Shown here piece after piece: positions 4,015-37,339 of a stretch of 41,381 nucleotides of DNA. The DNA is taken from positions 1-41,381 of the forward strand of contig MWEZ01000004.1 of assembly GCA_002071335.1 (NCBI GenBank). The letters are read 5' to 3'. Made by a program: the position numbers and the translations under genes. The stretch is from Verrucomicrobia bacterium ADurb.Bin018. GTDB taxonomy: Bacteria; Verrucomicrobiota; Kiritimatiellia; CAIQIC01; Lenti-01. The notes below the pieces were generated by a model. That model saw only the letters and a list, made by a program, of their open reading frames with translations. It was not told where the DNA came from and ran no database searches. Each line of letters opens with the position of its first letter. Position 1 is the stretch's first letter.

Positions 4015-5184
4015 TTACCCAAACAGCAGTAATTGGTTATGGCTCTCGGGTGTTTTGGTTTTGTAATCCCATGCCTGAAATGCCTGTAAAATGGGGGTTT
4101 TCTCAAACAGCGAGACGCTCAATATCTGTAGAATTGTGTAGAGTTCCATCTCAATTCGGAGACGTTTTTTGAGGATCGCCACGAGCAAATATGTCGAAAT
4201 GGCGATCCAGATCTGAGTCTTCACCGCATTTGGCGTAGTGCCAAGGAAAGCTTTAATACGGAGGTGTTGTTTGATCCACTTGAAGAACAGCTCAATCATC
4301 CATCGTGCTTTGTACAACTTGGCTATGGTCATGGCTGGCAGTGTAAAATCGTTGGAGAGAAACACGAGCAGAGAACTGGGATCGTCCGGGTCGCGAAATT
4401 TGATCCGGCGCAGAGGTTCTGGATACGCCTTGGCTGGGTAGAAGTTTGTGAGAAGCACGGTCTGATCGCAGATCAGGCCAGTATTCCTGTCGACCGGGTG
4501 AGAGTATCGACGTTGGAACTTGAAGTTGGATTTGGCCCTGGTGACAAAGAATGCACGGCAGACGTTGATTTCGAAAAGCCGGTTGAAATCAAGATAGGCA
4601 CGGTCCATAAGATAGTATGCACCAGGCGTGGGGATAAGATAGTCGAGAATGTTGACGTCGTGCAGTTTCCCGTCGGAAATATGAATAAATTCGGGGATGT
4701 TGCCCCGAAGATTCATCAGGGTGTGCATCTTGATTGCGCCTTTATGCCGTCGAAAACGCGCCCAAGGAAACATCGAAAGGCATAAGTCGATGGTCGTCGA
4801 ATCCAAGGCGTAAACTGATGCCTCCAACTCGACGGAAAGTTCTTCACCCGCGTAAAGCTCACGAGCTTTGCTGATCAGGTGTTGAGCGAACTCTGCGTAC
4901 ATGCGCCAGTCGCGTTGCTCGTTGGCGTTGGAAAGGTTGTTACGCGAAACGGTGCTGCGGATGCCCATGTGGTAGAGTTTCGGACGCATGGCCCGAAGAC
5001 ATGCTTCGATGTCGCGCAAACTCTCCCTGCAGGTCAACTGCGCGAAGGACATCACGCGGAAATGGGAAGAACACTTAAACTCCTTAACCTTGTGGTCGCC
5101 GCCGTATCGACTTACGCATCGGTCAAAATGATGCCACGGCAAATGTTGCATAAGCTGAGAGAATATTGTTGGGCCTGTGTACAT
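4015..5184 (-). CDS. IS4-family transposase with DUF4372-type N-terminus
   Basis: The 389-residue protein has a helical N-terminal region of the DUF4372 type (residues 1-80) and a DDE transposase core. The first catalytic Asp sits in ALDSTTIDL (about 127), the second in YYLMDRAYLDF (about 193), and the IS4 YREK-like signature is seen as YKARWMIELFFKWIKQ (about 300-315), providing the catalytic Glu. The ATG at 5184 is preceded by AAGGAG with about 7 bases of spacing. The frame is intact, so the enzyme is probably functional. No second ORF is present in the element. Confidence 0.93.
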   Translation of the reverse strand: MYTGPTIFSQLMQHLPWHHFDRCVSRYGGDHKVKEFKCSSHFRVMSFAQLTCRESLRDIEACLRAMRPKLYHMGIRSTVSRNNLSNANEQRDWRMYAEFAQHLISKARELYAGEELSVELEASVYALDSTTIDLCLSMFPWARFRRHKGAIKMHTLMNLRGNIPEFIHISDGKLHDVNILDYLIPTPGAYYLMDRAYLDFNRLFEINVCRAFFVTRAKSNFKFQRRYSHPVDRNTGLICDQTVLLTNFYPAKAYPEPLRRIKFRDPDDPSSLLVFLSNDFTLPAMTIAKLYKARWMIELFFKWIKQHLRIKAFLGTTPNAVKTQIWIAISTYLLVAILKKRLRIEMELYTILQILSVSLFEKTPILQAFQAWDYKTKTPESHNQLLLFG

Positions 5185-9558: not shown

Positions 9559-10647
9559 TTATTGAGCCGGCACCGAGACCGGAGCTTCCGGCGGCAGGGC
9601 CGGCGCCGTTTCTTCTGCCGGGGTTTCAGGAGCCGCGGGGGCTTGCTCGGCCAGCGGCCCGACCAGCTTGATCGTGGCCTTTTCGCGCAGCCCGCGGATA
9701 AAATTTGCCGTGACTTGCTGGTGGGCTTGCAGCTTGAGCACCTCCGTCAGCCGCCCCTTGACCTCCTCAAAGGGAATCAACTTTTCTTCTTGCTCGCCCG
9801 TCACTTTGACGATGTGGAAACCCACCGGCGTTTCGATGACTTCGCCGATTTCGTTGAATGGCTGGCCATACACCGCCTCTTCAAAAGATAGCGCTTCGCG
9901 GCCACGCGGAATCACACCCAATTCGCCGCCACGCTCCGCACTGAGACATTCGGACTTTTCCCGGGCCATTTGCGCGAAGTCAGCACCACCCAGCAGTTCT
10001 TGGCGAATCGCCTCGGCCTTGGCCCGCAAATCCGCCTTCACGGATTCCGTCGCGTCCTGCGGCACGCGCAGCAGGATATGCGACGCCAAGCGCCCGGCCG
10101 GCTGGGTGAACTCCTGCGGATGGGTATCATAATACTCCCGCACGACCTGTTCCGTAATCCCGGCCAAGGCTTCATCGAGCTGCTCCTTGATCATCTTGTT
10201 CTTGAAGATGTCCAATTGAAGATTCTTTTCAACCTCTTCCATGGGCAGCTTGGTTTCCGCCAGCAAGACGGACAGCGAACCTCCGGGGCCAAGTGCGGCT
10301 TCCAAGTCTTTCTTCCCCTTTTCGATTTCTTCGCGGGTGATGATGGACTTGGAGCGTTCCATTTCGTTGCGCACCAGTTGCCGAACAATCAAGCCTTCAA
10401 CGGCCTCGCCCACCAGGCGCGCCTGAATACCCGGGATTTGATCAGCGGGAATGTTCGCCGGCACCTGCGCGAAAAGCCGATTGACTTCCCGCTGCACCTG
10501 GCCCGCCGTAATACCCGATTGGTCCACCCAAACCGCGACATCGTCCGGATTGATCAGATTGGGTTTGACCACCTGCGCGCTTTTCTTCCCGCAGCCCGCG
10601 CCCCAGACCATCGCCACCACCATGATCAGCCGCCAGAAATGTTTCAT
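9559..10647 (-). CDS. Parvulin-type peptidyl-prolyl isomerase lipoprotein (SurA/PrsA-like)
   Basis: The 362-residue protein begins with a lipoprotein signal: a hydrophobic stretch followed by GAGC, where the Cys at about residue 18 would be lipidated. A helical SurA-N-like chaperone region follows (about 35-185), then a parvulin PPIase domain from ASHILLRV to VGFHIVKVTGEQ (about 200-295), and a Pro/Ala-rich tail. Such proteins assist folding of exported proteins in the periplasm or at the membrane. I chose the ATG at 10647 because it fits the lipobox and has AGGAAG upstream; a longer frame to 10773 adds no signal-like sequence. A hairpin at 10664-10680 lies in the leader. It follows the HprK-like gene with a 132-bp gap, so it may be a separate transcription unit, although its role would suit the large exported proteins nearby. 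Confidence 0.88.
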   Translation of the reverse strand: MKHFWRLIMVVAMVWGAGCGKKSAQVVKPNLINPDDVAVWVDQSGITAGQVQREVNRLFAQVPANIPADQIPGIQARLVGEAVEGLIVRQLVRNEMERSKSIITREEIEKGKKDLEAALGPGGSLSVLLAETKLPMEEVEKNLQLDIFKNKMIKEQLDEALAGITEQVVREYYDTHPQEFTQPAGRLASHILLRVPQDATESVKADLRAKAEAIRQELLGGADFAQMAREKSECLSAERGGELGVIPRGREALSFEEAVYGQPFNEIGEVIETPVGFHIVKVTGEQEEKLIPFEEVKGRLTEVLKLQAHQQVTANFIRGLREKATIKLVGPLAEQAPAAPETPAEETAPALPPEAPVSVPAQ

Positions 10648-10663
10648 ACCCTGCTTCCTTTCA

Positions 10664-10680
10664 CCGGGCGTCACGCCCGG
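10664..10680 (-). promoter_or_regulatory. GC hairpin in the foldase leader
   Basis: CCGGGCG (10664-10670) and CGCCCGG (10674-10680) form a perfect 7-bp stem with a 3-base loop, 17 bases upstream of the PPIase start codon and just before its ribosome binding site. It could stabilise the mRNA or affect initiation. There is no T-tract, so it is not a standard terminator. Confidence 0.4.
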
Positions 10681-10766
10681 ATTGATTTGAGGCCTCATTT
10701 TCCCGCCCCACCCGTCAAAAATCAAGCTGCAATCCGAGTCCAGCAGAATTCTTCCCCTATCCAAAC

Positions 10767-10780
10767 GGGCCACATGGCCC
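10767..10780 (-). terminator. Short hairpin at the end of the peptide operon
   Basis: Arms GGGCCA and TGGCCC with a 2-base loop begin at the last base of the HprK-like stop codon. On the minus strand the hairpin is followed only by GTTTGG, so it is at best a weak intrinsic terminator. Its position at the end of the operon is the main support. Confidence 0.3.
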
Positions 10781-11694
10781 TATTTGTGAGAAGCCGTCAA
10801 TAACGGCAGCAGGCAGTCGGCCACAGCCGGTGTGGGGCGAAAATCCAGCCGGTAGGCGGGTATCGTCGCCACCAGGTGCTCCACCACCGCGAGGGCCAAG
10901 TCGCGCATGGTGGGCACGAACCATGGCACGGAGGCCGTGGTGAAAAGTCGTTTCAATGCTTCCGCGGGCGGGATTGGCGTCAGCCGATTTTCGGCGGCTT
11001 TTTCGATGAAGCACAAGGCGCGCAGTGGCGCCGATTCATTCCTGGCCTGCTTGGCATCGCCGGGCCATGGCGTACCGCAGGCGTCCAGGCCGTCGGCCGT
11101 TTGCCGCAACACCATGCGGTCATCGGACAAAATAACCCCGTGGCCGGAGGCCATGAGCTGGTTGCAGATGGTCGTTTTGCCCGCGCCAGACACACCGGGA
11201 AACAGCAAGGCTTGCCCTTGGTATTTCCATCCGCAGGCGTGAACCATGATCCGTTGCCGATGGGTCAGCACCCCCATACACAAGACCCGGTCCACCGGGT
11301 GCAGAAGCGGCGGCATGGGCCGGCCATGCACGGGATCGGGCCAGACGGTTACTCGCGAATAATCAGCGTTGGGTTCCGCCCAGAGATAGGCGGGCAGGTC
11401 GTTGGCATTGAAACGGAAAACAGTGCGCCCGTTCGCCTGACCTGCCTGCCAGGCGCCACCGGCAAAGGTGGCGGTAAAAGTGTCATCCGTCGGGCGCTCT
11501 ACATCAGCGCCATGGAGGAACACGGAATCGGCGGGTGTGGAATCAGGCCGAATATTAAGAAAGGCCTGATAGGAATCAGGCCATGCGGAAAAATCTGGAC
11601 ATAGGGGCTTGGCCAGTTCAATGCCAAGCCCGGCTATGTCCAAGATATTGCGTCCGGAGCTCGTGGAGCCGGCGGGCGCGGGATCCAACCTCAT
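10780..11694 (-). CDS. HPr-kinase-like P-loop protein of a peptide-modification cluster
   Basis: The 304-residue protein contains one clear nucleotide-binding unit: Walker A GVSGAGKTT at residues 167-175, followed by ILSDDRMVL (188-196), the position of the catalytic Asp pair in HPr kinase and PEP carboxykinase folds. The N-terminal 130 residues are not recognisable. It lacks the N-terminal HprK domain of true HPr kinase/phosphorylase. Related proteins sit beside PqqD-like genes, and in some lasso peptide pathways such a kinase phosphorylates the precursor peptide. Its start codon overlaps the stop of the 58-residue peptide gene as ATGA, so the two are translated together. I infer that the peptide, or a carrier bound to it, is its substrate. 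Confidence 0.8.
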   Translation of the reverse strand: MRLDPAPAGSTSSGRNILDIAGLGIELAKPLCPDFSAWPDSYQAFLNIRPDSTPADSVFLHGADVERPTDDTFTATFAGGAWQAGQANGRTVFRFNANDLPAYLWAEPNADYSRVTVWPDPVHGRPMPPLLHPVDRVLCMGVLTHRQRIMVHACGWKYQGQALLFPGVSGAGKTTICNQLMASGHGVILSDDRMVLRQTADGLDACGTPWPGDAKQARNESAPLRALCFIEKAAENRLTPIPPAEALKRLFTTASVPWFVPTMRDLALAVVEHLVATIPAYRLDFRPTPAVADCLLPLLTASHK

Positions 11695-11867
11695 GAACCC
11701 AATGACGAGCAGGTCACGCCAAATTGGTCTTGGCAGGTCAGCGTCGGGCCAGCGCCGGTGATGTCTTTGCAGCTCTTGGCCAACAGCTCTTCGCCGTGCA
11801 AATCAACCACTTCCAAGCGGGGGGCTTCGTAGGCATCTTGCTGGGGATTTTTCTCTTGCTCTTGCAT
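11691..11867 (-). CDS. Candidate RiPP precursor peptide, 58 residues, three Cys
   Basis: Translating the gap between the radical SAM and kinase genes gives a 58-residue peptide starting at the ATG at 11867, with AAGGAG 6-7 bases upstream (a strong site) and ending in TGA at 11691-11693 inside the kinase start. Residues 1-12 are rich in Gln and Glu. Residues 13-30 (YEAPRLEVVDLHGEELLA) resemble the Y..P.L.vv....e leader found in many small modified peptides, which is where a PqqD-type domain would bind. Residues 32-58 form a putative core rich in Ser, Thr, Gly and Asp with Cys at 33, 45 and 53. The gene lies between PqqD/radical SAM and the kinase, the usual place for a precursor. The product structure is unknown. 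Thioether or other carbon-linked crosslinks at the cysteines are one possibility. Confidence 0.85.
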   Translation of the reverse strand: MQEQEKNPQQDAYEAPRLEVVDLHGEELLAKSCKDITGAGPTLTCQDQFGVTCSSLGS

Positions 11868-11897
11868 GCTTTTCTCCTTGGGGGATTACTATTACTT

Positions 11898-13031
11898 TTA
11901 GGATATTCCGGGGGTTGCAACAAGACTTGTTTTAGCGGCCAGCTCTTTTTCAACGCCGCGCCGCTGGCGGGTTTTGGCCACTTGGCAGGCATAGGGGAAA
12001 ACGGCGGTCTCTATGCCCGTTTCCAGTTCGGCTACCGCCGGGCAGGAGGCGCAATACGGCAGCGCCGCGCAACCAGTGCAGGCATAACCGGCGGGTTTGA
12101 ACGCCGACTGGATGGCCTGGCGGGACTGCCGAAAAGCCGCCAGCAGCTTGCCGGGGCGCCATTGCACGCCGTAGCGGGCGGCGCTGACGCACGGTTGAAT
12201 CATCCCGGTGGCGGTTGCATAGAACGAAATGGACCCGGCCGCGCATGTGTAAAGCGGTTGCGGGCCCGGCGCGGCTGCCGTCTTGGCCGCCTGCGTTTGT
12301 TCCCGCTTGGCGGTGCGCTCCCATTCCGCCTGCAGTTCGGGAACGTGGCGCGCTTCCAGCTCCACCAGCTCGGCGGGCGGCACGCGGTACTGCTGAATCT
12401 CACCGTCGCCGGGGAAGCGGGCATGGATCGCGGCATCGTAACGTACTTGCCGCTCCCCTGCCCCACGCATGGCGCGAATGGTCGCGAAATCATGCTTGTT
12501 GGGATTCATCAGGATGGTCTTCAAGGCCACGGGCATTCCGGCATCCCGCAGTCGTTGGACACCGTCCATGACTTCGAGATAGGCCTCGGGACGGCCGGTG
12601 ACCGCGGCATACGTCTGCGGCGAGGCACCGTAGATCGTAATTTCAATCAGCCGCGGCGGCGCCTCCTGCAATACTTCAACGATCCGCTGGTCCACACGCG
12701 AGGCGTTGGTGAAGATCATCACCTGAATGCCCATTTTCCGGATACCAAGATAAATCTCGGGGAAGTCGGAGCGCAACAGCGGCTCCCCGCCGGTTAGCAA
12801 CACCGAGAAACAGCCGGCATCTGCGGCCTCTTTTACGAGCGCCAGCCATTCGCCGGCTGTCAATTCCTTGGTCGGCGATGCTGCGTTGGGCAGGACATAA
12901 CAATGGACGCAGCGAAAATTGCAGCGCTGAGTCAGTTCCAGTGTGGCGTGCAACGGGAGCCCCTCCTCGCGCGCGCGTTGCCGCATGGCATCCACGCGCG
13001 AGTGGCCAACTCCGATGTCGCAATCTCTCAT
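11898..13031 (-). CDS. Radical SAM/SPASM peptide-modifying enzyme (PqqE-like)
   Basis: The 377-residue protein has the radical SAM cluster motif CNFRCVHC (C37, C41, C44), the SAM-binding GGEP (81-84), and a full C-terminal SPASM domain with seven cysteines (263, 281, 318, 321, 327, 330, 349) spaced C-x12-G-x4-C, then C-x2-C-x5-C-x2-C and a last Cys. That set binds two extra 4Fe-4S clusters, as in PqqE, AnSME and sactipeptide maturases. These enzymes cleave SAM to a 5'-deoxyadenosyl radical and crosslink or oxidise side chains of a peptide. Its start overlaps the PqqD stop (ATGA), which fits a direct PqqD-enzyme partnership. The precursor gene starts 30 bp downstream. The chemistry catalysed cannot be read from sequence. 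Confidence 0.93.
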   Translation of the reverse strand: MRDCDIGVGHSRVDAMRQRAREEGLPLHATLELTQRCNFRCVHCYVLPNAASPTKELTAGEWLALVKEAADAGCFSVLLTGGEPLLRSDFPEIYLGIRKMGIQVMIFTNASRVDQRIVEVLQEAPPRLIEITIYGASPQTYAAVTGRPEAYLEVMDGVQRLRDAGMPVALKTILMNPNKHDFATIRAMRGAGERQVRYDAAIHARFPGDGEIQQYRVPPAELVELEARHVPELQAEWERTAKREQTQAAKTAAAPGPQPLYTCAAGSISFYATATGMIQPCVSAARYGVQWRPGKLLAAFRQSRQAIQSAFKPAGYACTGCAALPYCASCPAVAELETGIETAVFPYACQVAKTRQRRGVEKELAAKTSLVATPGIS

Positions 13032-13333
13032 GATGCAGGTTGGGCAACCACCAGGTTGCGTTCCACCAACTGCTCAACAAATGCCGTGGCATCCGCGGTC
13101 GCCCGCGCGGGTTCAATCCGGAAATGCCCGGCCATTTTCTCCGCCACCTGAGCCAAGGTAGTCTGCTGACGCAGTTGTTCCCAAAGCCACTCACCGCTGG
13201 CATTCAGCAAAAATAGGCTGTCCATATCCACCTCGCGCGTGACGGTGGGAACCAGCATGACTTCGCCGGCCACTTTACGCAGCACCACACCGGGGCGCTG
13301 TTGAAATTGCTGGTGGGCAAGAGAAAGCTTCAT
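13028..13333 (-). CDS. PqqD-family peptide chaperone (RiPP recognition element)
   Basis: A 101-residue protein of PqqD size and pattern. It starts with beta-strands that include VVLRKVAGEVMLVP, then the conserved LFLLNASGEWLWEQL segment (about 40-54), helices with LAQVAEKMAGHF, and a C-terminal helix ending in LVERNLVV. PqqD proteins bind the leader of a precursor peptide and deliver it to the radical SAM enzyme. GAGGTG lies 5 bases before the ATG at 13333. The gene overlaps the radical SAM gene by 4 bases and follows the glycine-rich gene by 18 bp. Confidence 0.9.
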   Translation of the reverse strand: MKLSLAHQQFQQRPGVVLRKVAGEVMLVPTVTREVDMDSLFLLNASGEWLWEQLRQQTTLAQVAEKMAGHFRIEPARATADATAFVEQLVERNLVVAQPAS

Positions 13334-13351: not shown

Positions 13352-14059
13352 TTAGAACGGGGACTCGTCACCGCCGCCGCCACCGCCACCGCCGCCACCA
13401 CCCCCGCTGCCACCGCCGCCACTGCCACCGCCCCCGCTGGAGCCACCACCACCGCTCGGGGGTCGCGGTTTGTTGTTACTGCTGCCGCCGCCACCACCGC
13501 CGCCACTTGGCGGTTGAGGCGAAGGATTATTGGGCCGCACGCCCGGGTCGCGGGAATCGCTCCCCCCACCATCGCCCCCGCCGCCGCCACCAGCACTGGC
13601 AATCGCCGCCGTGATGCCCACGACAACCACCACCCCGGCAAATACTTTGGCAGTACGCCCCGGAGCATCATGCCACGCGCGCCAGTTCAAAAACGATAAC
13701 GGTTCGCCCACCCGGATTGGCAAGCGCCAGCGCGAAGGGCGAAATACCGCGGTCAGATCGGCCCACGTGCTAAACTCCTGCCCGGCGCCAACGGATACCG
13801 CCGTGGTGTCCGCTTGCAGTGCGAGGGTGCTGGCCGGCACAGGCGTAGCGGCAGCCATGAGCAGCGGATAGGTTGCATCTACGGTCATTGGCGCGGCAGC
13901 CGAGGGCGCGCCATAATCACCATATCCCAGCGGTGCATCGGACATCGCCCACGCAAGGCTCGAGTCCTGCAACGTGAGTAACGGATGACCGGCCGCTGCC
14001 GCATAGCCGCCGAACAGGAACAGTCCGGCCGTAATTCCACAGACCAGCCTTTGTTTCAT
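13352..14059 (-). CDS. Secreted or membrane protein with glycine-rich tail, unknown function
   Basis: I do not recognise the family. The 235-residue product starts at the ATG at 14059 (AGGAAA upstream) with a signal peptide of about 24 residues ending in AAAA. A region without clear motifs follows (25-130), rich in Ala, Pro and Ser. A second hydrophobic helix FAGVVVVVGITAAIASA lies at about 139-155, and from there to the end the chain is mostly Gly with Ser, Pro and Asn, finishing DESPF. The second helix probably anchors it in the membrane. It lies in the peptide operon between the HEAT-like gene and PqqD, 18 bp before the latter, so co-transcription is likely. It may be a surface or envelope component, possibly a second substrate, but nothing proves this. 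The low-complexity tail makes length variation by slippage plausible. Confidence 0.72.
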   Translation of the reverse strand: MKQRLVCGITAGLFLFGGYAAAAGHPLLTLQDSSLAWAMSDAPLGYGDYGAPSAAAPMTVDATYPLLMAAATPVPASTLALQADTTAVSVGAGQEFSTWADLTAVFRPSRWRLPIRVGEPLSFLNWRAWHDAPGRTAKVFAGVVVVVGITAAIASAGGGGGGDGGGSDSRDPGVRPNNPSPQPPSGGGGGGGSSNNKPRPPSGGGGSSGGGGSGGGGSGGGGGGGGGGGGDESPF

Positions 14060-14091
14060 TTTCACGATTTTTCCTTTGCGCAATGCAATCA

Positions 14092-15135
14092 CTAAAACCA
14101 CCGCTCACTGTCATCCATGCCTTCACGGCCGGGCTGCACCGCCGGGTGCAACTGCCCAGCCCCAGTGGCCGTTCCACCAGCCACCGCTGCGGTGCGGAGC
14201 GGCTCCGGCACGCCACGCCCGCCGGCAATAAATGCCAGCGCCGCTTGGCTGAATCCGGACGAACCGGCCGCCAAGGCATCCCGATAGTAGTGCGGCGCAT
14301 TCGGCTGGAGCGCGCATTCCGCCAACCAGAGGCAGGCCTCCCACCCGCCGATATTGGCGATGCCATGCGCCGCCGCTGCGGCGATATCGGGGTCCGGTGA
14401 TTCCGCCAGACTCATCAAAGCAGGTAACTCCTCAAAATCGGTGCGCTGGCGCAAAACGGCCAGCCAAGGTGCACGTTGCGTTGGAGAGTAATTGGTGGCC
14501 AACTGCTGTTCGATAGCCTCGATAAGAGCCGGCCCACGCACCGTGGCCAACACCGCCGCGAGGCGCTCCCGCGTTTGTTCATCCGTTGTGGTTGCCAACG
14601 CCTGCACCAGCCACGCGGCCAAAGCCGGGTGGCGAATCCCATGCAGCGCGCTGACATAATCGGCATGGCGCGGGTCATCAGCAGGGGTCATCCACAAGAT
14701 GGTCAAAGCCATGGCAAGGCCGGCATCGCCATCATGATGCGCCAGCCAACGAAAGGCCCCGCGCCGTTCCGCAGGCGTGGCCAGCGAATCCAATAGTTGC
14801 TGAACACCGGCCAGTTCATTTTCTGCCATCGCTGCAGCCAGCGCCTTGTGCAAGGCCACGAACGGCATGGAATCAGTCGCTGTGTCCGCCGGCCATGGTG
14901 TTTCATCGGCATCCATGACCACTTGGGGCTCTAACGCCGCTTCCGGGATGCTCTGGTCAAAATCTGCGTCAGACTGCTCGATGGTAGCAGCCTGCGCCGC
15001 AGCGCGCTCCCGCAGTTCTTCCTCGGTGCCGGGCAGAAGCACCACAGGCTGGTTATCCCGCAGATGGATGGCAACCGGCCAAAGCGCTAGCGCGGCCACA
15101 GCCAAGCAAAGCAAAACTAGAAGCCGACGGATCAT
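14092..15135 (-). CDS. Membrane-anchored HEAT-repeat-like protein
   Basis: The 347-residue protein has an N-terminal hydrophobic segment (MIRRLLVLLCLAVAALALWP) that would serve as a signal anchor, an acidic linker (about 35-85), and then an alpha-helical array of about 240 residues. Short helix pairs recur, for example HPALAAWLVQALA, and PDPDIAAAAAHGIANIGG, the latter close to the HEAT consensus. HEAT arrays are binding scaffolds. Its ATG overlaps the stop of the C25 protease gene (ATGA), so the two are translationally coupled and may form a complex at the envelope. I see no catalytic motif. The call of HEAT-like is from the helix pattern, not a profile search. Confidence 0.7.
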   Translation of the reverse strand: MIRRLLVLLCLAVAALALWPVAIHLRDNQPVVLLPGTEEELRERAAAQAATIEQSDADFDQSIPEAALEPQVVMDADETPWPADTATDSMPFVALHKALAAAMAENELAGVQQLLDSLATPAERRGAFRWLAHHDGDAGLAMALTILWMTPADDPRHADYVSALHGIRHPALAAWLVQALATTTDEQTRERLAAVLATVRGPALIEAIEQQLATNYSPTQRAPWLAVLRQRTDFEELPALMSLAESPDPDIAAAAAHGIANIGGWEACLWLAECALQPNAPHYYRDALAAGSSGFSQAALAFIAGGRGVPEPLRTAAVAGGTATGAGQLHPAVQPGREGMDDSERWF

Positions 15136-18100
15136 GGCCCGGGACTCACCTGAATGGTGCGTTCAATGAAGCGGCCAAACATGCCATCGCTGGCATAGGG
15201 GCGTGCATCCACGCCCGAGGCCAGATTGCAGGCCATGCGGGTACCGTTGCTGTTTTGGATCCGGTGCCGGAAGAAAATCTGCACCCGGGGGGCACCGGGC
15301 TCGCCGGGCGGTGTGGTATTCCATTCCGCCAGCACATTCACCAAGGCGCGGAAGGTATATTCCATCGCGTAATACGTGGTGCCATTGTGCGTGAAGTTGA
15401 ATGTGGATTTCTTGGACGACACCCGGCTGCCGTTCACTTGCAGCGGGATGGTCGAGTTGGCGAAGTCGGCCGCGGCCAACTGGCCTTCGATATCCATATA
15501 GGCCAAGACCGTCCACTGGCAGGTGACGGTAGTACCGGGCACCCAATTGTCCGGGATGTTGATGGCCGTGACCACGCCGCCAGAACGCTTCTTGATATCG
15601 TTGATGTTGTCGAACTCACGCTGCGGATTCTGTTCGCGCACGGGCGATTGGTCTTCGGTGAATCCCCCGGGCGTGCCGGGCGATGAGGATGAGGCATGCG
15701 ACACCAGCGTCCGGCGGAACACTTTGGCAATATCCGGATCCGGCCGGTTATCCACCCCATCGGGAATATTGGCCAGCAGGTAGCGCACCCCGTCCATCTG
15801 CGCCACGTTGAACCATGCAAAAATATCAACTGGGGCATCGCCTGAATCGGGTGCGGTCCAGTCGCACTCGAAGGAATAGACCTTGGCTTTTTTGGCGCCG
15901 GAACCCACGTTCCATGAGCTTTCCACCTGCCCGACCAATTCGCCATTGCGTCGCACATTCCAGACCACGTTGGTGCCGTCGCGGTGCATGGTTTGCAAGT
16001 AGGAGCGCACCGGCACATAGGATAGAATCTGCCAGCGCACGCGCACTGTATTGCCGCGTGGGATATTGTCCGGGAACTCGATGGCTTGCACCACTTGGCC
16101 GGAGCGTAGTCCCGCGTCATAGTAGGCGTCGCCACTATAGGTGACCTTGACGGTTTGGGTGGTGGCGTTGCCATAGATATCCGTAGCAATAACGTCCAGG
16201 AAATTCACGCCTTGATGCAGCGGGATATCGTTCACCGACCAAGAGCCGGTGCCAGTCGCCACCCATTCGCCCACATCCCGGTTATTGCGCACGATCACTT
16301 CGGCCACTCCGCTGAAGTCGGCAGCCGTGCCGGACAGTGCGACCCGGTTCGAGGCGCTGCTCGCGCCCGGGCGGGTGGTTATATTGAGATTGGGCGGGGT
16401 AAGGTCATCGAAACGGCGCGGCCGCATCCGCAAGGCTGGGTCCCCCATCAAGACACTGGCGGCGACGGTCCAAGGCGACGCGCTGCGCGCCTGCAAGTCC
16501 AGTGCATTCTGGATGACGTTACCCAGAAAACTTTCATCGGCGCCAAAGAGATTGCTCACAATGGCACCGGCGGTGGCTTCCGCCATGGAGAGCGTGTTTT
16601 CGGTGGCCGAGGACCAAATCGCCACGGGCCCGCCTGGTGCGGCCGTCAAAAAGGCTTTGCCGAGGCAACGGGTGTTCGGATGTGGCTCACCAAAGTTGTT
16701 CAGCATGCAGGTTCCGGCAACCAGAAGCGGCGTCTGGACTTGGTTCGTCAACGACAACATATCAATCTGATTGGTTGCGTTATACTGGAAGAAATAGGGG
16801 CTACTGATCCCAAAGTTATTTGCGTGGCCATAATACGACGCCAGGAAGGGACCCATGTTGAGCTGCTGAATGAAATTGGCGCGCATCTCAGCCACAGGGG
16901 TTGTCATGCCAAGCGGCAATTTTTTTACCGTGAGACCCGGTGGCAGTTTGGCCGCCAAACGGTTGGCCGCATGCGCGAAAGCATTATTCTCATCTTTGTC
17001 GGACACCAGCAGCACGCTTTTCTTCCAAGTGGATTCAGCCTCATGCTGGATAATGCGGGCGATCATGTTGCTCAGCGCGGCGGGTGTTTGCGCGGGCAGC
17101 CGCCCCAGCCGTACATCCGGCGCCGCGTTACCCTTCCAGTCCGCCATTGGGTTATCCAGCCCCACCGTCAGATTGTTGCCGCTGGGTGTGGCATCCACCG
17201 GAACTCGCGATTTGACCGGTGGAATGTGATTGGGACGCGTGGCCGACTGGTTGAAAATGTCGTGATAGTCCTGATGGCCATCCCCAGCGAGACAGACATA
17301 AGCTGGTTTTTCGGTCCAGTTTTGGCTCGTGTATTTTAGGAATTCGCGCACGGCGGTCGGATCCCGCCGGCCATAAGTGAATTCATTGAAGAGGTCTTCA
17401 ATGGGCACCAGCACGGAGTTCAAACCGGTTTGCTGCCGGTAATCCACCAGCGCCTGCGCTGCGTTGGTCAGAGCATAGGAGGTAATGACCACATACTTTC
17501 CCCCGGCCTGCGGTTTGCGCCAAGTCACTCCCGCTGCCCCGGTCATGTGCGCCGGCGTCAGATCCACGGCGCTGGCAAGGTAGCGGCGGGCGTCACTCTC
17601 AGCCACGCTCCACGAAATCTGCCAAGCGGCGCCATCTGGCGTCACAGTTCCCTGCACCGCCACCGGCCGGCGCGGGTTGGTGAGATCAAACACGCGAATG
17701 TCCGGTTGCGTGAAGCCGCGCACCGTCAGCACATTCGTTCCCGGCCGTGCGGTAAACAGCAATTGATTGCTTCGCGCCCGCAGATGGCGAGCATAGGTCA
17801 CCTCGAGCGCGTCCAACATGACCGTGGTTGTAACGACGCCGCTATCGCGCAGGATGTCCACGCGCACCGTCAGCGAGGTCCCTCCCAGGTTGGTCGTTGG
17901 CCCCGACAAGACGATGCGTTCGTCGCCCTTCCATTGTTGTTCCGCCACCAATACGCCGCCCGCCCGAAGGCGGGTATGGTTGTCCAACTCCGCTGGGCCG
18001 TCATACGCGCCGATCAACACGGCGGACACCGTTCCTGTTTTGAGGTTGCTGTATGCATCCGGCAGCGTGATGGTGTTGGCCAGATTGGCGCTGCTTTCCG

Positions 18101-19034
18101 GCGACGTGAGCGACACGCCATCCCACACAAAATAATCATCCTCAACTCCGCCGGGGAGTTGCGGCTGATAATAATTTTGCCGTTCAACGCGCAACGTTTC
18201 CCAGAACCAGCCGTTTGTGTCCGACAACGCCGTGGCCTGATTGCTCACCGCCATGGCCAAGCCGGGAGCCAGTTCCAGCCAATAGACATTTTCATGCCCG
18301 TAGCTGTCCGAATACCGCTCGCCCACAAAACGCAGAGCCGAGCCGTCTATCTCACCGAGCCACGCCACGGCCTCGCCGTTGCATGTCAGACGAATGCCCT
18401 GACTTTGAATCATCGTCGCCACGCCTGCTTCCGTGGCGCCAACCAGCAAGTTGGCGATTTCCGCTGCGGTCACCCGGTACACGCCATCGTTGGTGACGGT
18501 GACTCGAATCCGGTTGCCGGGCACGATGGGGAGCCCGCGCCGTTGCATGGACGATTTGCCGCGCGCGGACGGTTCGGCCTGCGGCTCTGCCGAGCCGCGC
18601 GGGGCAACGGTGAGCGTGCGGAATTCGCCGGGCCACTCCTGCCCTTCCGGATCCACGACAACCAAGCGGTACGTCAGCACATCGCCGACCCGCGCGCCTG
18701 CGGTTGTGTCCACAAATGAATAGGCATCACCCGGCAGCGCAAAGAGCCGAACCTTGACCCAACTGGTGGTGAGCCGCGTCACTGCGCCATTCGGTAATTG
18801 CCGCTCCACATGCCAGCCCACCATGGCCGTGGGTGGAATATCGCTGTTCCATTCCACCACCACCGCGCCGGCATCGCCGGCCGTCAACTGCACGGAAACA
18901 TCGTCGGGGCGCAGCGCTGCTTGGGCCGGCTCTGCCCCCCAAGCGATTCCGGCCACGGCCGCAAGCCACAGCCAGCGCCGCGCCTGCCCAATCATGGTTT
19001 TCCACGCTTTTGGCAACTGATTCATCTCCAACAT
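15132..19034 (-). CDS. C25-family (gingipain-like) cysteine protease, secreted
   Basis: A 1300-residue exported protein. A signal peptide covers about residues 1-40 (WLWLAAVAGIAWG then AEPAQA). A beta-sandwich region follows to about 500, and the C25 domain runs from KYVVITSYALTNAAQALVDY to about residue 860. The catalytic pair is visible: His 737 in YYGHANNFG and Cys 776 in AGTCMLNNFGEPHPNTRCLG, in the same order and spacing class as gingipains. APVWIWSSATEN-like sequence (GPVAIWSSATE) follows the Cys. After residue 880 come Ig-like beta domains. No type IX sorting domain is evident. The ATG at 19034 is chosen; a TTG one codon earlier and an ATG at 19025 are alternatives, and no clear ribosome binding site was found. 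It leads the peptide operon, so it may process an exported product, but this is inference. Confidence 0.88.
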   Translation of the reverse strand: MLEMNQLPKAWKTMIGQARRWLWLAAVAGIAWGAEPAQAALRPDDVSVQLTAGDAGAVVVEWNSDIPPTAMVGWHVERQLPNGAVTRLTTSWVKVRLFALPGDAYSFVDTTAGARVGDVLTYRLVVVDPEGQEWPGEFRTLTVAPRGSAEPQAEPSARGKSSMQRRGLPIVPGNRIRVTVTNDGVYRVTAAEIANLLVGATEAGVATMIQSQGIRLTCNGEAVAWLGEIDGSALRFVGERYSDSYGHENVYWLELAPGLAMAVSNQATALSDTNGWFWETLRVERQNYYQPQLPGGVEDDYFVWDGVSLTSPESSANLANTITLPDAYSNLKTGTVSAVLIGAYDGPAELDNHTRLRAGGVLVAEQQWKGDERIVLSGPTTNLGGTSLTVRVDILRDSGVVTTTVMLDALEVTYARHLRARSNQLLFTARPGTNVLTVRGFTQPDIRVFDLTNPRRPVAVQGTVTPDGAAWQISWSVAESDARRYLASAVDLTPAHMTGAAGVTWRKPQAGGKYVVITSYALTNAAQALVDYRQQTGLNSVLVPIEDLFNEFTYGRRDPTAVREFLKYTSQNWTEKPAYVCLAGDGHQDYHDIFNQSATRPNHIPPVKSRVPVDATPSGNNLTVGLDNPMADWKGNAAPDVRLGRLPAQTPAALSNMIARIIQHEAESTWKKSVLLVSDKDENNAFAHAANRLAAKLPPGLTVKKLPLGMTTPVAEMRANFIQQLNMGPFLASYYGHANNFGISSPYFFQYNATNQIDMLSLTNQVQTPLLVAGTCMLNNFGEPHPNTRCLGKAFLTAAPGGPVAIWSSATENTLSMAEATAGAIVSNLFGADESFLGNVIQNALDLQARSASPWTVAASVLMGDPALRMRPRRFDDLTPPNLNITTRPGASSASNRVALSGTAADFSGVAEVIVRNNRDVGEWVATGTGSWSVNDIPLHQGVNFLDVIATDIYGNATTQTVKVTYSGDAYYDAGLRSGQVVQAIEFPDNIPRGNTVRVRWQILSYVPVRSYLQTMHRDGTNVVWNVRRNGELVGQVESSWNVGSGAKKAKVYSFECDWTAPDSGDAPVDIFAWFNVAQMDGVRYLLANIPDGVDNRPDPDIAKVFRRTLVSHASSSSPGTPGGFTEDQSPVREQNPQREFDNINDIKKRSGGVVTAINIPDNWVPGTTVTCQWTVLAYMDIEGQLAAADFANSTIPLQVNGSRVSSKKSTFNFTHNGTTYYAMEYTFRALVNVLAEWNTTPPGEPGAPRVQIFFRHRIQNSNGTRMACNLASGVDARPYASDGMFGRFIERTIQVSPGP

Positions 19035-19346
19035 CAAATCAAAAACTTATTTTTGCCGGCGGTCATCTTCCACAAAAAACATGGACCCGACCGCTTGGCC
19101 AACGGCATCAAGCGTTTGCTCCTCTACACTACGGCAGCACCCGCGTTTTGCCACTGATTCACTCGACTTTCTTTCGACTTCTTTCCCAATTCACTGTTTT
19201 GCATTCCGAAACATCAGGAGCGGCCGGCTTGGGGGCCGGAAAGGTTTTCCACAGTGTGGAAAAAATATTTCCACAGCGTGGAAAACCGCGCGCCCGCGGA
19301 CCCCGGCGGCTGCCCCGGCATTCCGTGGCAGCCGCCTTGGCCTGGA
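19035..19346. other. Intergenic region between the giant gene and the C25 protease gene
   Basis: About 310 bp without a convincing gene. The notable content is the 45-bp palindrome at 19243-19287, described separately. Short + strand frames here give no recognisable protein. The C25 promoter should lie in this stretch, but no clear -35/-10 pair was found. Confidence 0.6.
19243..19287. promoter_or_regulatory. 45-bp palindrome made of two TTTCCAC/GTGGAAA hairpins
   Basis: Outer arms GGTTTTCCAC (19243-19252) and GTGGAAAACC (19278-19287) are perfect complements. Inside are two smaller palindromes: 9-bp arms TTTTCCACA/TGTGGAAAA around one G (19245-19263) and TTTCCAC/GTGGAAA around AGC (19268-19284). 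It could be an operator for the C25 operon about 210 bp downstream or a terminator for the giant gene, which ends about 60 bp before it on the minus strand. A related pair lies upstream of the giant gene at 35406-35433. Confidence 0.55.
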
Positions 19347-35802: not shown

Positions 35803-36933
35803 TCAGCGGAACCAGGATTTCAGCCAAGGATGCCGCAGCAACCGCAGCGGACGCACCAACGCGTAGGCCGGCTCCAAAGCATGCGGTAATGGACACCCCT
35901 CCAAATCGCCCAAAGTCGGGGTGAACACCCACCCGGTCATCATTCGTACCTTCTGCCGCCATGCATCCTGCGCGGCGCGCTCGTAGCGCAGGCGGGCCAT
36001 CATCGGCATCCGTTCGGTCGCCGCGGGGCCGGCCATCACCGCAGCCCCCGCCGCCAACGCCAGCACGCGGGGCCGGCTCGCCAGTGTGGCGGCATCGTCG
36101 CTTAATTCAATGCCTGCCAAGTCCGCCGCCAACCGCAAGCCCAGCCCCAGCACGACGGTTTGCGCCCGCCGCCGTGCCACAACACACGCCTCCGCTCGTT
36201 CCGCCGGCGATAACTTCTGCCAAATGGCCGCGGTATCCATCACCCACGAAAGCCGATCCCATCCGTGGTGCGCGCCGTGCCGACAGCCGAACAGCAACGC
36301 ATCCACCGGGTGCAGCGTGGACACGACCACCCCGCCGATATTCAACTGCACGCGGCGATTCCACATCTCCCGTGCAGCCCGGCGGCTGGGCCCCAATGAC
36401 GCCCAACCATGCGCCACCTCCACCAACCGCCCTCGTTCCGGGTGCCGGAACGAAGCCTCGATCCCCGCCCGCCGCGCCGCCGCAGCCACCCGTTCCGTCA
36501 ACGGCGGCGACCGCTCGAATCCCGCAGCCCGCAACGCTATGGCGGCGTTCGCCGCGCGCGACGCCGGCACCCAAAGATCCACGTCGTCACTCACCCGCCA
36601 TTCTTCGGTCGGATAGGCCTGTCGAGCCAACGCCGGGCCTTTCAGAATCAAAAACTCCCCCCCCGCCCCCGCCAGAATATCCGCCACCAATGCCACTTCG
36701 CGGTCCAGCACCACCATGTGCTGCGCCAACGACAGCACTCGCCGCCGAAATGCTCCCCGCTGCTCAGCGGCCAGACCCGCCGCGCAAAGTGGCACCACAC
36801 GATGCCGCTCCGCCATGGCCAGCAAATCCTCCGGCCTCACCCCCGGCGATAATTCCACTCGGCCCAAGTTGCCGTGCAACGCCGCCGCGCAACACCGCTG
36901 CAAATCAGCGAACGTCTGGAGCGGTTCAACCAT
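35803..36933 (-). CDS. PF14907-type nucleotidyltransferase family protein
   Basis: The 376-residue protein has the hallmark of the uncharacterised nucleotidyltransferase family: FLILKGPALARQAYP (about 94-108), then VSDDVDLWV (114-122) with the metal-binding acidic residues, followed by ALRAAGF. Further on are a conserved VEVAHGW stretch and HPVDALLFGCRHGAHHGWDRLSWVMD (two parts, about 208-233) and a helical C-terminus. Family members occur in lasso and other peptide clusters together with HprK-like kinases and PqqD proteins, where they may attach nucleotides or act on the peptide. The substrate is unknown. The start at 36933 overlaps the end of the S24/S26 peptidase gene by 8 bases (ATGGTTGA), so the two are coupled. 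Confidence 0.85.
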   Translation of the reverse strand: MVEPLQTFADLQRCCAAALHGNLGRVELSPGVRPEDLLAMAERHRVVPLCAAGLAAEQRGAFRRRVLSLAQHMVVLDREVALVADILAGAGGEFLILKGPALARQAYPTEEWRVSDDVDLWVPASRAANAAIALRAAGFERSPPLTERVAAAARRAGIEASFRHPERGRLVEVAHGWASLGPSRRAAREMWNRRVQLNIGGVVVSTLHPVDALLFGCRHGAHHGWDRLSWVMDTAAIWQKLSPAERAEACVVARRRAQTVVLGLGLRLAADLAGIELSDDAATLASRPRVLALAAGAAVMAGPAATERMPMMARLRYERAAQDAWRQKVRMMTGWVFTPTLGDLEGCPLPHALEPAYALVRPLRLLRHPWLKSWFR

Positions 36934-37339
36934 GCCGCTGCCGCCACTGCAGAATGAGCCGGTTCACCCAGCGCCGCGCCGGATGGATCAGCAAAAAGAG
37001 CCGGCGTCGCCAAAGCGGCAGCGCCACGACGCCGGCAACCGCCGCCAGCGGCACCAGTTCCGGTGGCCCCCATTCTGCGTCGCCCCGACATGCCACCACG
37101 CCATCCGCTGTCGGCGGTTGCACCACGCGGTGCAGCACGGGCTCTTGTTCGTTGCGCCAGAACAGGGCGATATCGCCCCGGCGCAACTGCCGGCCCGCCA
37201 GCGGGGCCACCATCACTTTTTGCCCCTCGCGCAACCACGGCAGCATACTCGGCCCCCGCACCCGAAATGCCACCGCCTGCCCCCTCGCCAAAGTCTCGCG
37301 CAGCACCGCCGTAAACAACGCCTGGTCCTCTCTCTTCAA
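36926..37339 (-). CDS. S24/S26-family peptidase with Ser-His catalytic pair
   Basis: A 137-residue, single-domain protein. GPSMLPWLREGQ (residues 29-40) carries the catalytic Ser31. After RRGDIALFW the motif VLHRVV places His70 where bacterial signal peptidase I has Lys, so it resembles the SipW/Sec11 and ER-type subgroup. CRGDAEWGPPELVP (84-97) is the box E-like segment and VAGVV the final strand. It has no N-terminal transmembrane helix; only a weak hydrophobic stretch lies near residues 113-118. The start is uncertain: the frame opens at TTG 37339 without a good ribosome binding site. Such small proteins accompany PF14907 nucleotidyltransferases in peptide-type clusters. I infer a processing or regulatory protease role, not general secretion. 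Confidence 0.8.
   Translation of the reverse strand: MKREDQALFTAVLRETLARGQAVAFRVRGPSMLPWLREGQKVMVAPLAGRQLRRGDIALFWRNEQEPVLHRVVQPPTADGVVACRGDAEWGPPELVPLAAVAGVVALPLWRRRLFLLIHPARRWVNRLILQWRQRHG

Follow-up and report, generated by a model that had tools for sequence, protein, structure and literature searches.

A reading frame of 58 codons lies between a radical SAM enzyme gene and a kinase gene in Verrucomicrobia bacterium ADurb.Bin018, and it raises the question of whether it is a gene at all and, if so, what is done to its product. We consider it within a window of 41,381 nucleotides, the whole stretch of DNA that was analyzed (contig MWEZ01000004.1). The initial annotation had placed an unlisted 58-residue precursor here, with cysteines at positions 33, 45, and 53, a strong ribosome binding site, and an ATGA overlap with the kinase start. 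The coordinates and all of these features are correct, and we add that the frame is on the minus strand. It starts with ATG and translates as MQEQEKNPQQDAYEAPRLEVVDLHGEELLAKSCKDITGAGPTLTCQDQFGVTCSSLGS followed by a stop codon, with Cys33, Cys45, and Cys53 in place, whereas the plus strand of the same interval is interrupted by stops. The AAGGAG sequence stands 6 nucleotides before the ATG, and the TGA of the precursor overlaps the ATG of the kinase as ATGA (Table 1).

A tblastn search of 56 related genomes, a check that the initial annotation had suggested, returned clear homologues of the precursor in five (E values of 1.5e-23 to 2.6e-5), namely, G008 (72% identity), G004, G016, G014, and G010, and all of them lie between radical SAM and kinase genes of the same families. 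The precursor differs from that of G008, the nearest relative, at 14, 6, and 17 sites in the first, second, and third codon positions, with a dN of 0.137 versus a dS of 1.06. We take this pattern to indicate purifying selection; the dN/dS ratio for that pair is 0.13, and dS is saturated past the nearest relative. An unconserved frame, stop codons, or nonsynonymous drift would have counted against the gene, and none of these is seen. The 58-residue frame is thus a real and previously unannotated gene. The initial impression that its core belongs to no recognized class also holds: no Pfam model matches the window's own peptide, the one member scanned against Pfam, and the NCBIfam scan of 15 precursor members is silent save for one chance match (E value of 0.063).

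A profile built from these 15 members (alignment A1) finds precursors in 54 of 346 genomes of the Kiritimatiellia class, and in about 40 loci of the class the precursor lies between the radical SAM and kinase genes. Among 388 genomes of the phylum Verrucomicrobiota outside the class, there was one marginal match and no others. Precursors found with the profile adjoin the same enzymes in Nitrospirota, Chloroflexota, Planctomycetota, Desulfobacterota, Omnitrophota, and other groups. Weak first-pass matches at L013, L015 to L020, and L197 were discarded, as no pathway genes adjoin them. Given the position of the precursor, its conservation, and its fixed anatomy across related loci, the peptide is almost certainly the substrate of the PqqD/radical SAM/kinase pathway, as first proposed.

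Table 1. Coordinates in the window of the precursor gene, its parts, and the associated genes.
Feature	Position	Strand	Evidence
Precursor peptide gene, 58 aa	11691..11867	-	ORF; conservation in related loci; dN/dS 0.13 to nearest relative
Ribosome binding site AAGGAG	11874..11879	-	Sequence; ATG 6 nt further on
Leader, residues 1-32 (putative boundary)	11772..11867	-	Small residue before Cys33; Cys at Y+20
YEAPRL, residues 13-18, [Y/W]xxPx[L/I/V] leader motif, expected PqqD binder	11814..11831	-	Precursor alignment
Core, residues 33-58, CKDITGAGPTLTCQDQFGVTCSSLGS (putative boundary)	11694..11771	-	CK core start in 75/91
C-terminal Gly-Ser, Ser58 the proposed phosphorylation site	11694..11699	-	Ser end in 81/93 complete precursors
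HprK-like peptide kinase	10780..11694	-	HprK_rel_A, E 5.9e-9; invariant residues; model fold match
Radical SAM/SPASM peptide maturase	11898..13031	-	PF04055, E 2.6e-26
PqqD-like RiPP recognition element (RRE)	13028..13333	-	PF05402, 50.9 bits (cut-off 23.4)
Gly/Ser-rich exported protein, close relatives only	13352..14101	-	ORF; homologues in L021, L023
HEAT-repeat protein, close relatives only	14092..15135	-	PF13646; homologues in L021, L023
Secreted C25 cysteine peptidase (PorU/gingipain family)	15132..19037	-	PF01364, E 8.4e-65; GH and TC motifs retained
NTP_transf_5 protein	35803..36933	-	PF14907, E 2.9e-33
Archaeal-type signal peptidase I-like protein (SpI), candidate leader peptidase	36926..37339	-	TIGR02228, E 3.3e-9 (below cut-off); PF00717 (above cut-off)

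The peptide is fixed at a few positions and free to vary elsewhere. In the seed set of 15 members, Y13, P16, L23, E27, C33, K34, G57, and S58 are invariant. In total, 91 precursors can be aligned, from the Kiritimatiellia class, Nitrospirota, Chloroflexota, Planctomycetota, Desulfobacterota, Omnitrophota, Aminicenantes, Cloacimonadota, Chlorobi, and methanogenic archaea. The Y..P leader noted at the outset recurs throughout: in an alignment anchored on this motif, all 91 have the proline and all 91 have Tyr or Trp, and 87 have Leu, Ile, or Val at +5. Glu occupies Y+14 in 74 of the 91, counts that are deduplicated by sequence and inflated by kinship among the loci. A Cys follows, mostly at Y+20 or Y+21 (exactly Y+20 in 65 of 89), and Lys comes directly after it except in 16 of the 91, where it is replaced. 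Cores range from 16 to 49 residues and hold two to six Cys. Among nonredundant precursors (<50% identity), 44 of 55 end in Ser, against a background of 10% (binomial probability of 2e-33, with residual relatedness ignored). The three cysteines that had been singled out as core features, and suggested as sites of thioether links, do not all carry the same weight: only Cys33 is constrained, being present in every seed member, whereas Cys45 and Cys53 are common among precursors but not invariant, so that the sequence reveals no constant pattern of cross-links. At L035 (G018:C12; 9713-10204 and 1-162), two tandem precursors lie between the radical SAM and kinase genes, and this genome has a third some 10 kb upstream. 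The precursor at positions 4365-4526 of L086 ends in SFKGY, compared to SFKGADGS in its close relative L091, possibly due to a recent frameshift or truncation.

The PqqD-like RRE and radical SAM/SPASM genes lie upstream of the precursor gene, and the HprK-like kinase gene lies downstream. The radical SAM enzyme has the CxxxCxxC motif and the SPASM cysteines C263, C281, C327, and C330, all invariant in 18 homologues, which places it in the radical SAM/SPASM family; its closest solved structures are SkfB and PqqE. In the kinase, H152, G167, G170, G172, K173, and D191 are invariant, and the enzyme retains the catalytic H-G-G-G-K-T-D-D pattern known from BsfK, where this motif is needed (PMC10368454). 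Its predicted structure (mean pLDDT of 88.6) matches PEPCK and HprK/P folds with E values of 1e-5 to 1e-3 and modest TM-scores; by sequence, neither the kinase nor PqqD has a useful match among solved structures. Directly 3' of the kinase and on the same strand is a gene for a SurA-like peptidyl-prolyl isomerase, possibly a lipoprotein (9559-10773), and a transposase gene (DUF4372 and DDE_Tnp_1) occupies positions 4015-5184. A radical SAM gene also adjoins an HprK-like kinase gene in the Clostridia loci L146, L150, L153, L154, L166, L168, and L170, several of them with PqqD and SpI; the A1 profile finds no precursor in these seven loci.

Three further genes belong to the wider cassette and, like the conserved C-terminal Ser, go beyond the initial annotation. 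The SpI protein has residues S31, H70, and D87, invariant in 12 homologues, and its gene adjoins the kinase in 28 of 38 loci of the class and in 14 of 33 others, and lies elsewhere in the locus in 3 and 12 more, respectively (repeated contigs excluded). In four close relatives (L022 to L025), the kinase is followed by the SpI-like peptidase and an NTP_transf_5 protein, the latter a homologue of the window protein at 43 to 53% identity. The SpI/NTP transferase pair of the window is on the kinase strand, approximately 25 kb away, beyond a 16-kb giant gene, a separation that counts against a shared pathway. This gene, located between the pair and the C25 gene (19347-35378), encodes a 5,343-residue exported repeat protein that resembles DUF11/SdrB proteins by eye. 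A C25 gene is found upstream of pqqD in 28 of 37 loci of the class and in 6 of 29 from other phyla; the catalytic His and Cys are retained. Both PqqD genes in the window's genome are in such cassettes, as are two of its three C25 genes, the third being isolated. The second complete cassette of this genome (L068; G000:C93, 2-5953) has a precursor of another subfamily (core ending in CVGPPITAWEAGS) and a convergent SpI gene. A search for SprA, to probe whether C25 might belong to a type IX secretion system, gave no match, and the controls were silent too.

What we observe directly is the gene, how it is conserved, how its product is built, and which genes surround it; from this we infer that the frame quite likely encodes the precursor of a phosphorylated radical SAM RiPP, in which every chemical step is proposed. 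The proposed enzyme targets (the leader, Cys33-Lys34, Ser58, and the Ser32-Cys33 bond) follow from precursor anatomy and from precedents in paeninodin-type and linear polyphosphorylated peptide (LPP) pathways. PqqD would bind the YxxPxL leader and present the peptide. The radical SAM/SPASM enzyme would then modify the core, probably at Cys33-Lys34, and it may link Cys sulfurs. The HprK-like kinase is predicted to phosphorylate the hydroxyl of Ser58, a step that we consider to have good support; the conserved C-terminal Ser explains the kinase. In paeninodin, ThcoA, and pseudomycoidin, the C-terminal Ser is proven to be the site at which PadeK, ThcoK, and PsmK act (PMC9266682), although the related kinases BsfK (PMC10368454) and LppK (PMC13381572) target residue 3 and not the C terminus. 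The NTP transferase may decorate the Ser58 phosphate afterward; its homologue PsmN is required for addition of a hexose to phosphoserine (PMC9266682). SpI, which is proven to remove the leader in LPPs (PMC13381572), could do so here. We lean toward a cut between Ser32 and Cys33, which would leave a core of 26 residues that begins with Cys. A signal-peptidase-like cut between AKS and CK fits, as the residue before Cys33 is small (Gly, Ala, Ser, Thr, or Cys) in 84% of precursors, and position -4 relative to the proposed site is hydrophobic. Finally, the upstream C25 peptidase may have a functional link to the product, by processing it at a late stage or by partnering it at the cell surface.

Natural variants bear on two of these steps. 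L104 (G010:C10, 826-5838) encodes C25, PqqD, two precursors, the kinase, and SpI and is without a radical SAM gene. Both of its precursors are without Cys, which supports Cys as the target of the radical SAM enzyme. Both also are without the C-terminal Ser, while the kinase is intact, so not every such kinase targets the C terminus. Overall, 12 of the 93 complete precursors do not end in Ser, including those of L104 and of Anaerolineales members with intact kinases. In L128, L136, L141, and L155 (Anaerolineales and other Chloroflexota), CN or CH replaces CK, and the precursors end in residues other than Ser; their kinase has E-D in place of D-D, and the C25 gene is 3' of the kinase. The idea that loss of the C-terminal Ser is tied to the change from D-D to E-D was dropped, as some precursors that end in Ser also have E-D kinases.

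The association with C25 suggests another view of purpose, namely, that the RiPP is not a diffusible product but a partner of this peptidase that inhibits it, regulates it in the manner of a propeptide, or serves as an anchoring moiety. This is compatible with the phosphorylated radical SAM RiPP that we favor, and we regard it as rather unlikely. The recurrence of C25, with its catalytic residues, upstream of pqqD in most loci of the class and in further loci elsewhere points to such a partnership, as does its persistence in L104 despite the loss of the radical SAM gene. However, 23 of the 29 tested loci of other phyla have no C25 gene within 4 kb upstream, so in those the peptide probably functions without it. 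A bolder version is that this is a separate RiPP class, with a radical SAM-modified N-terminal Cys-Lys and a C-terminal phospho- or phosphoglycoserine, the product being coupled to the secreted C25 (PorU-like) peptidase. For example, C25 might process this moiety or join it to large proteins of the cell surface, the 5,343-residue protein encoded nearby being one candidate. We put this forward as speculative, with a low probability.

The resemblance of the radical SAM enzyme to SkfB, together with the number of Cys in the cores, might instead indicate a thioether (sactipeptide or ranthipeptide) bacteriocin, with a kinase that is regulatory or accessory and does not act on the peptide. Such a product requires no C-terminal Ser, yet this residue varies far less than do the second and third Cys. 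Moreover, the kinase is a constant neighbor whose start overlaps the precursor, and neither an immunity gene nor an exporter is seen among the families common to the related loci. We consider the bacteriocin reading improbable.

The discrete PqqD, the SPASM radical SAM enzyme, and the short peptide substrate also recall the PQQ pathway (PqqA/PqqD/PqqE). With a PqqE-like enzyme and a near-invariant CK pair, the peptide could be a PqqA-like precursor, cross-linked between Cys and Lys and excised as a small redox cofactor, with the remainder discarded. This would leave the C-terminal Ser, the kinase, the NTP transferase, and SpI, the last three of which set the locus apart from the PQQ pathway, unexplained, and it sits poorly with replacement of the Lys in one precursor of every six or so. 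We find it very unlikely, and membership in the PQQ pathway itself was rejected, as the PqqE model scores 73 bits against a cut-off of 381 and the PqqD model 19.9 against 46. Scores far under the cut-offs likewise ruled out membership in GeoRSP. A lasso peptide precursor has next to no chance and was rejected: the YxxPxL leader, PqqD-like RRE, HprK-like kinase, and NTP transferase do occur as in paeninodin and Bsf clusters, but the B2 leader peptidase (PF13471) is absent genome-wide (the control was positive elsewhere), there is no cyclase among the scanned window genes, the core begins with Cys rather than Gly, and no lasso precursor model matches.

Returning to the phosphorylated radical SAM RiPP, we conclude that the system is a radical SAM-bearing relative of the LPP and paeninodin-type pathways. 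LPPs, described in 2026 from the lpp cluster of Paenibacillus alginolyticus, have a core set of RRE, HprK-like kinase, SpI, and NTP transferase and are described as restricted to Bacillota (PMC13381572). Our system shares a discrete RRE, an HprK-like kinase, an SpI-like leader peptidase, and an NTP transferase, these four genes lying in one run in L022 to L025 and split by the 16-kb gene in the window. It also shares a YxxP leader with Glu at Y+14. However, the LPP precursor motif YxxPxVLxHQxIxFETxxS is matched only at Y, P, the aliphatic residue at +5, and E at +14, and the leader is without the VLxHQxIxFETxxS part. The radical SAM/SPASM enzyme, the Cys-rich core, and the C25 peptidase are further differences, as is the proposed target, here the C-terminal Ser and in LPPs the core Ser3, which becomes polyphosphorylated there. 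The MsbA-like transporter of LPP clusters was not found among the scanned window ORFs or recognized in the shared ORF clusters, which are partly annotated. With the paeninodin/pseudomycoidin type, the system has in common the HprK-like kinase, the NTP transferase, and the [Y/W]xxP leader. A conserved C-terminal Ser beside an HprK-like kinase with the H-K-D-D motif is found here as well, and this Ser, proven to be the kinase target there, would be the target here. A radical SAM enzyme takes the place of the macrolactam cyclase and B2 peptidase. The SynChlorMet cassette of NCBIfam (ScmC, ScmD, ScmE, and ScmF) similarly combines HprK-like, PqqD-like, and SPASM radical SAM proteins, and ScmE is the best NCBIfam match of the window enzyme. 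Nevertheless, our loci mostly have one radical SAM gene, not two, and membership was rejected on scores of 102 against a cut-off of 400 for ScmE, 24 against 125 for ScmC, and 24.5 against 100 for ScmD.

No described family matches the whole enzyme set of leader binder, radical SAM enzyme, C-terminal serine kinase, signal-peptidase-like cutter, and surface cysteine peptidase. A literature search of partial coverage found no paper on the combination of radical SAM with LPP or paeninodin-type features, and the novelty is provisional for this reason. C25 peptidases go unmentioned in a review of RiPP leader proteases. This single precursor family joins the enzyme sets of two kinds of RiPP that have so far been treated separately, those made by radical SAM enzymes and those phosphorylated at the C terminus (lasso peptides and LPPs). 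It occurs across many phyla, including Kiritimatiellia, with no such peptide described in the literature searched. As the leader motif, the Cys at +20, and the C-terminal Ser are fixed, the target of each enzyme is directly testable on the 58-residue peptide. A part in RiPP biology can, in turn, now be considered for C25 peptidases.
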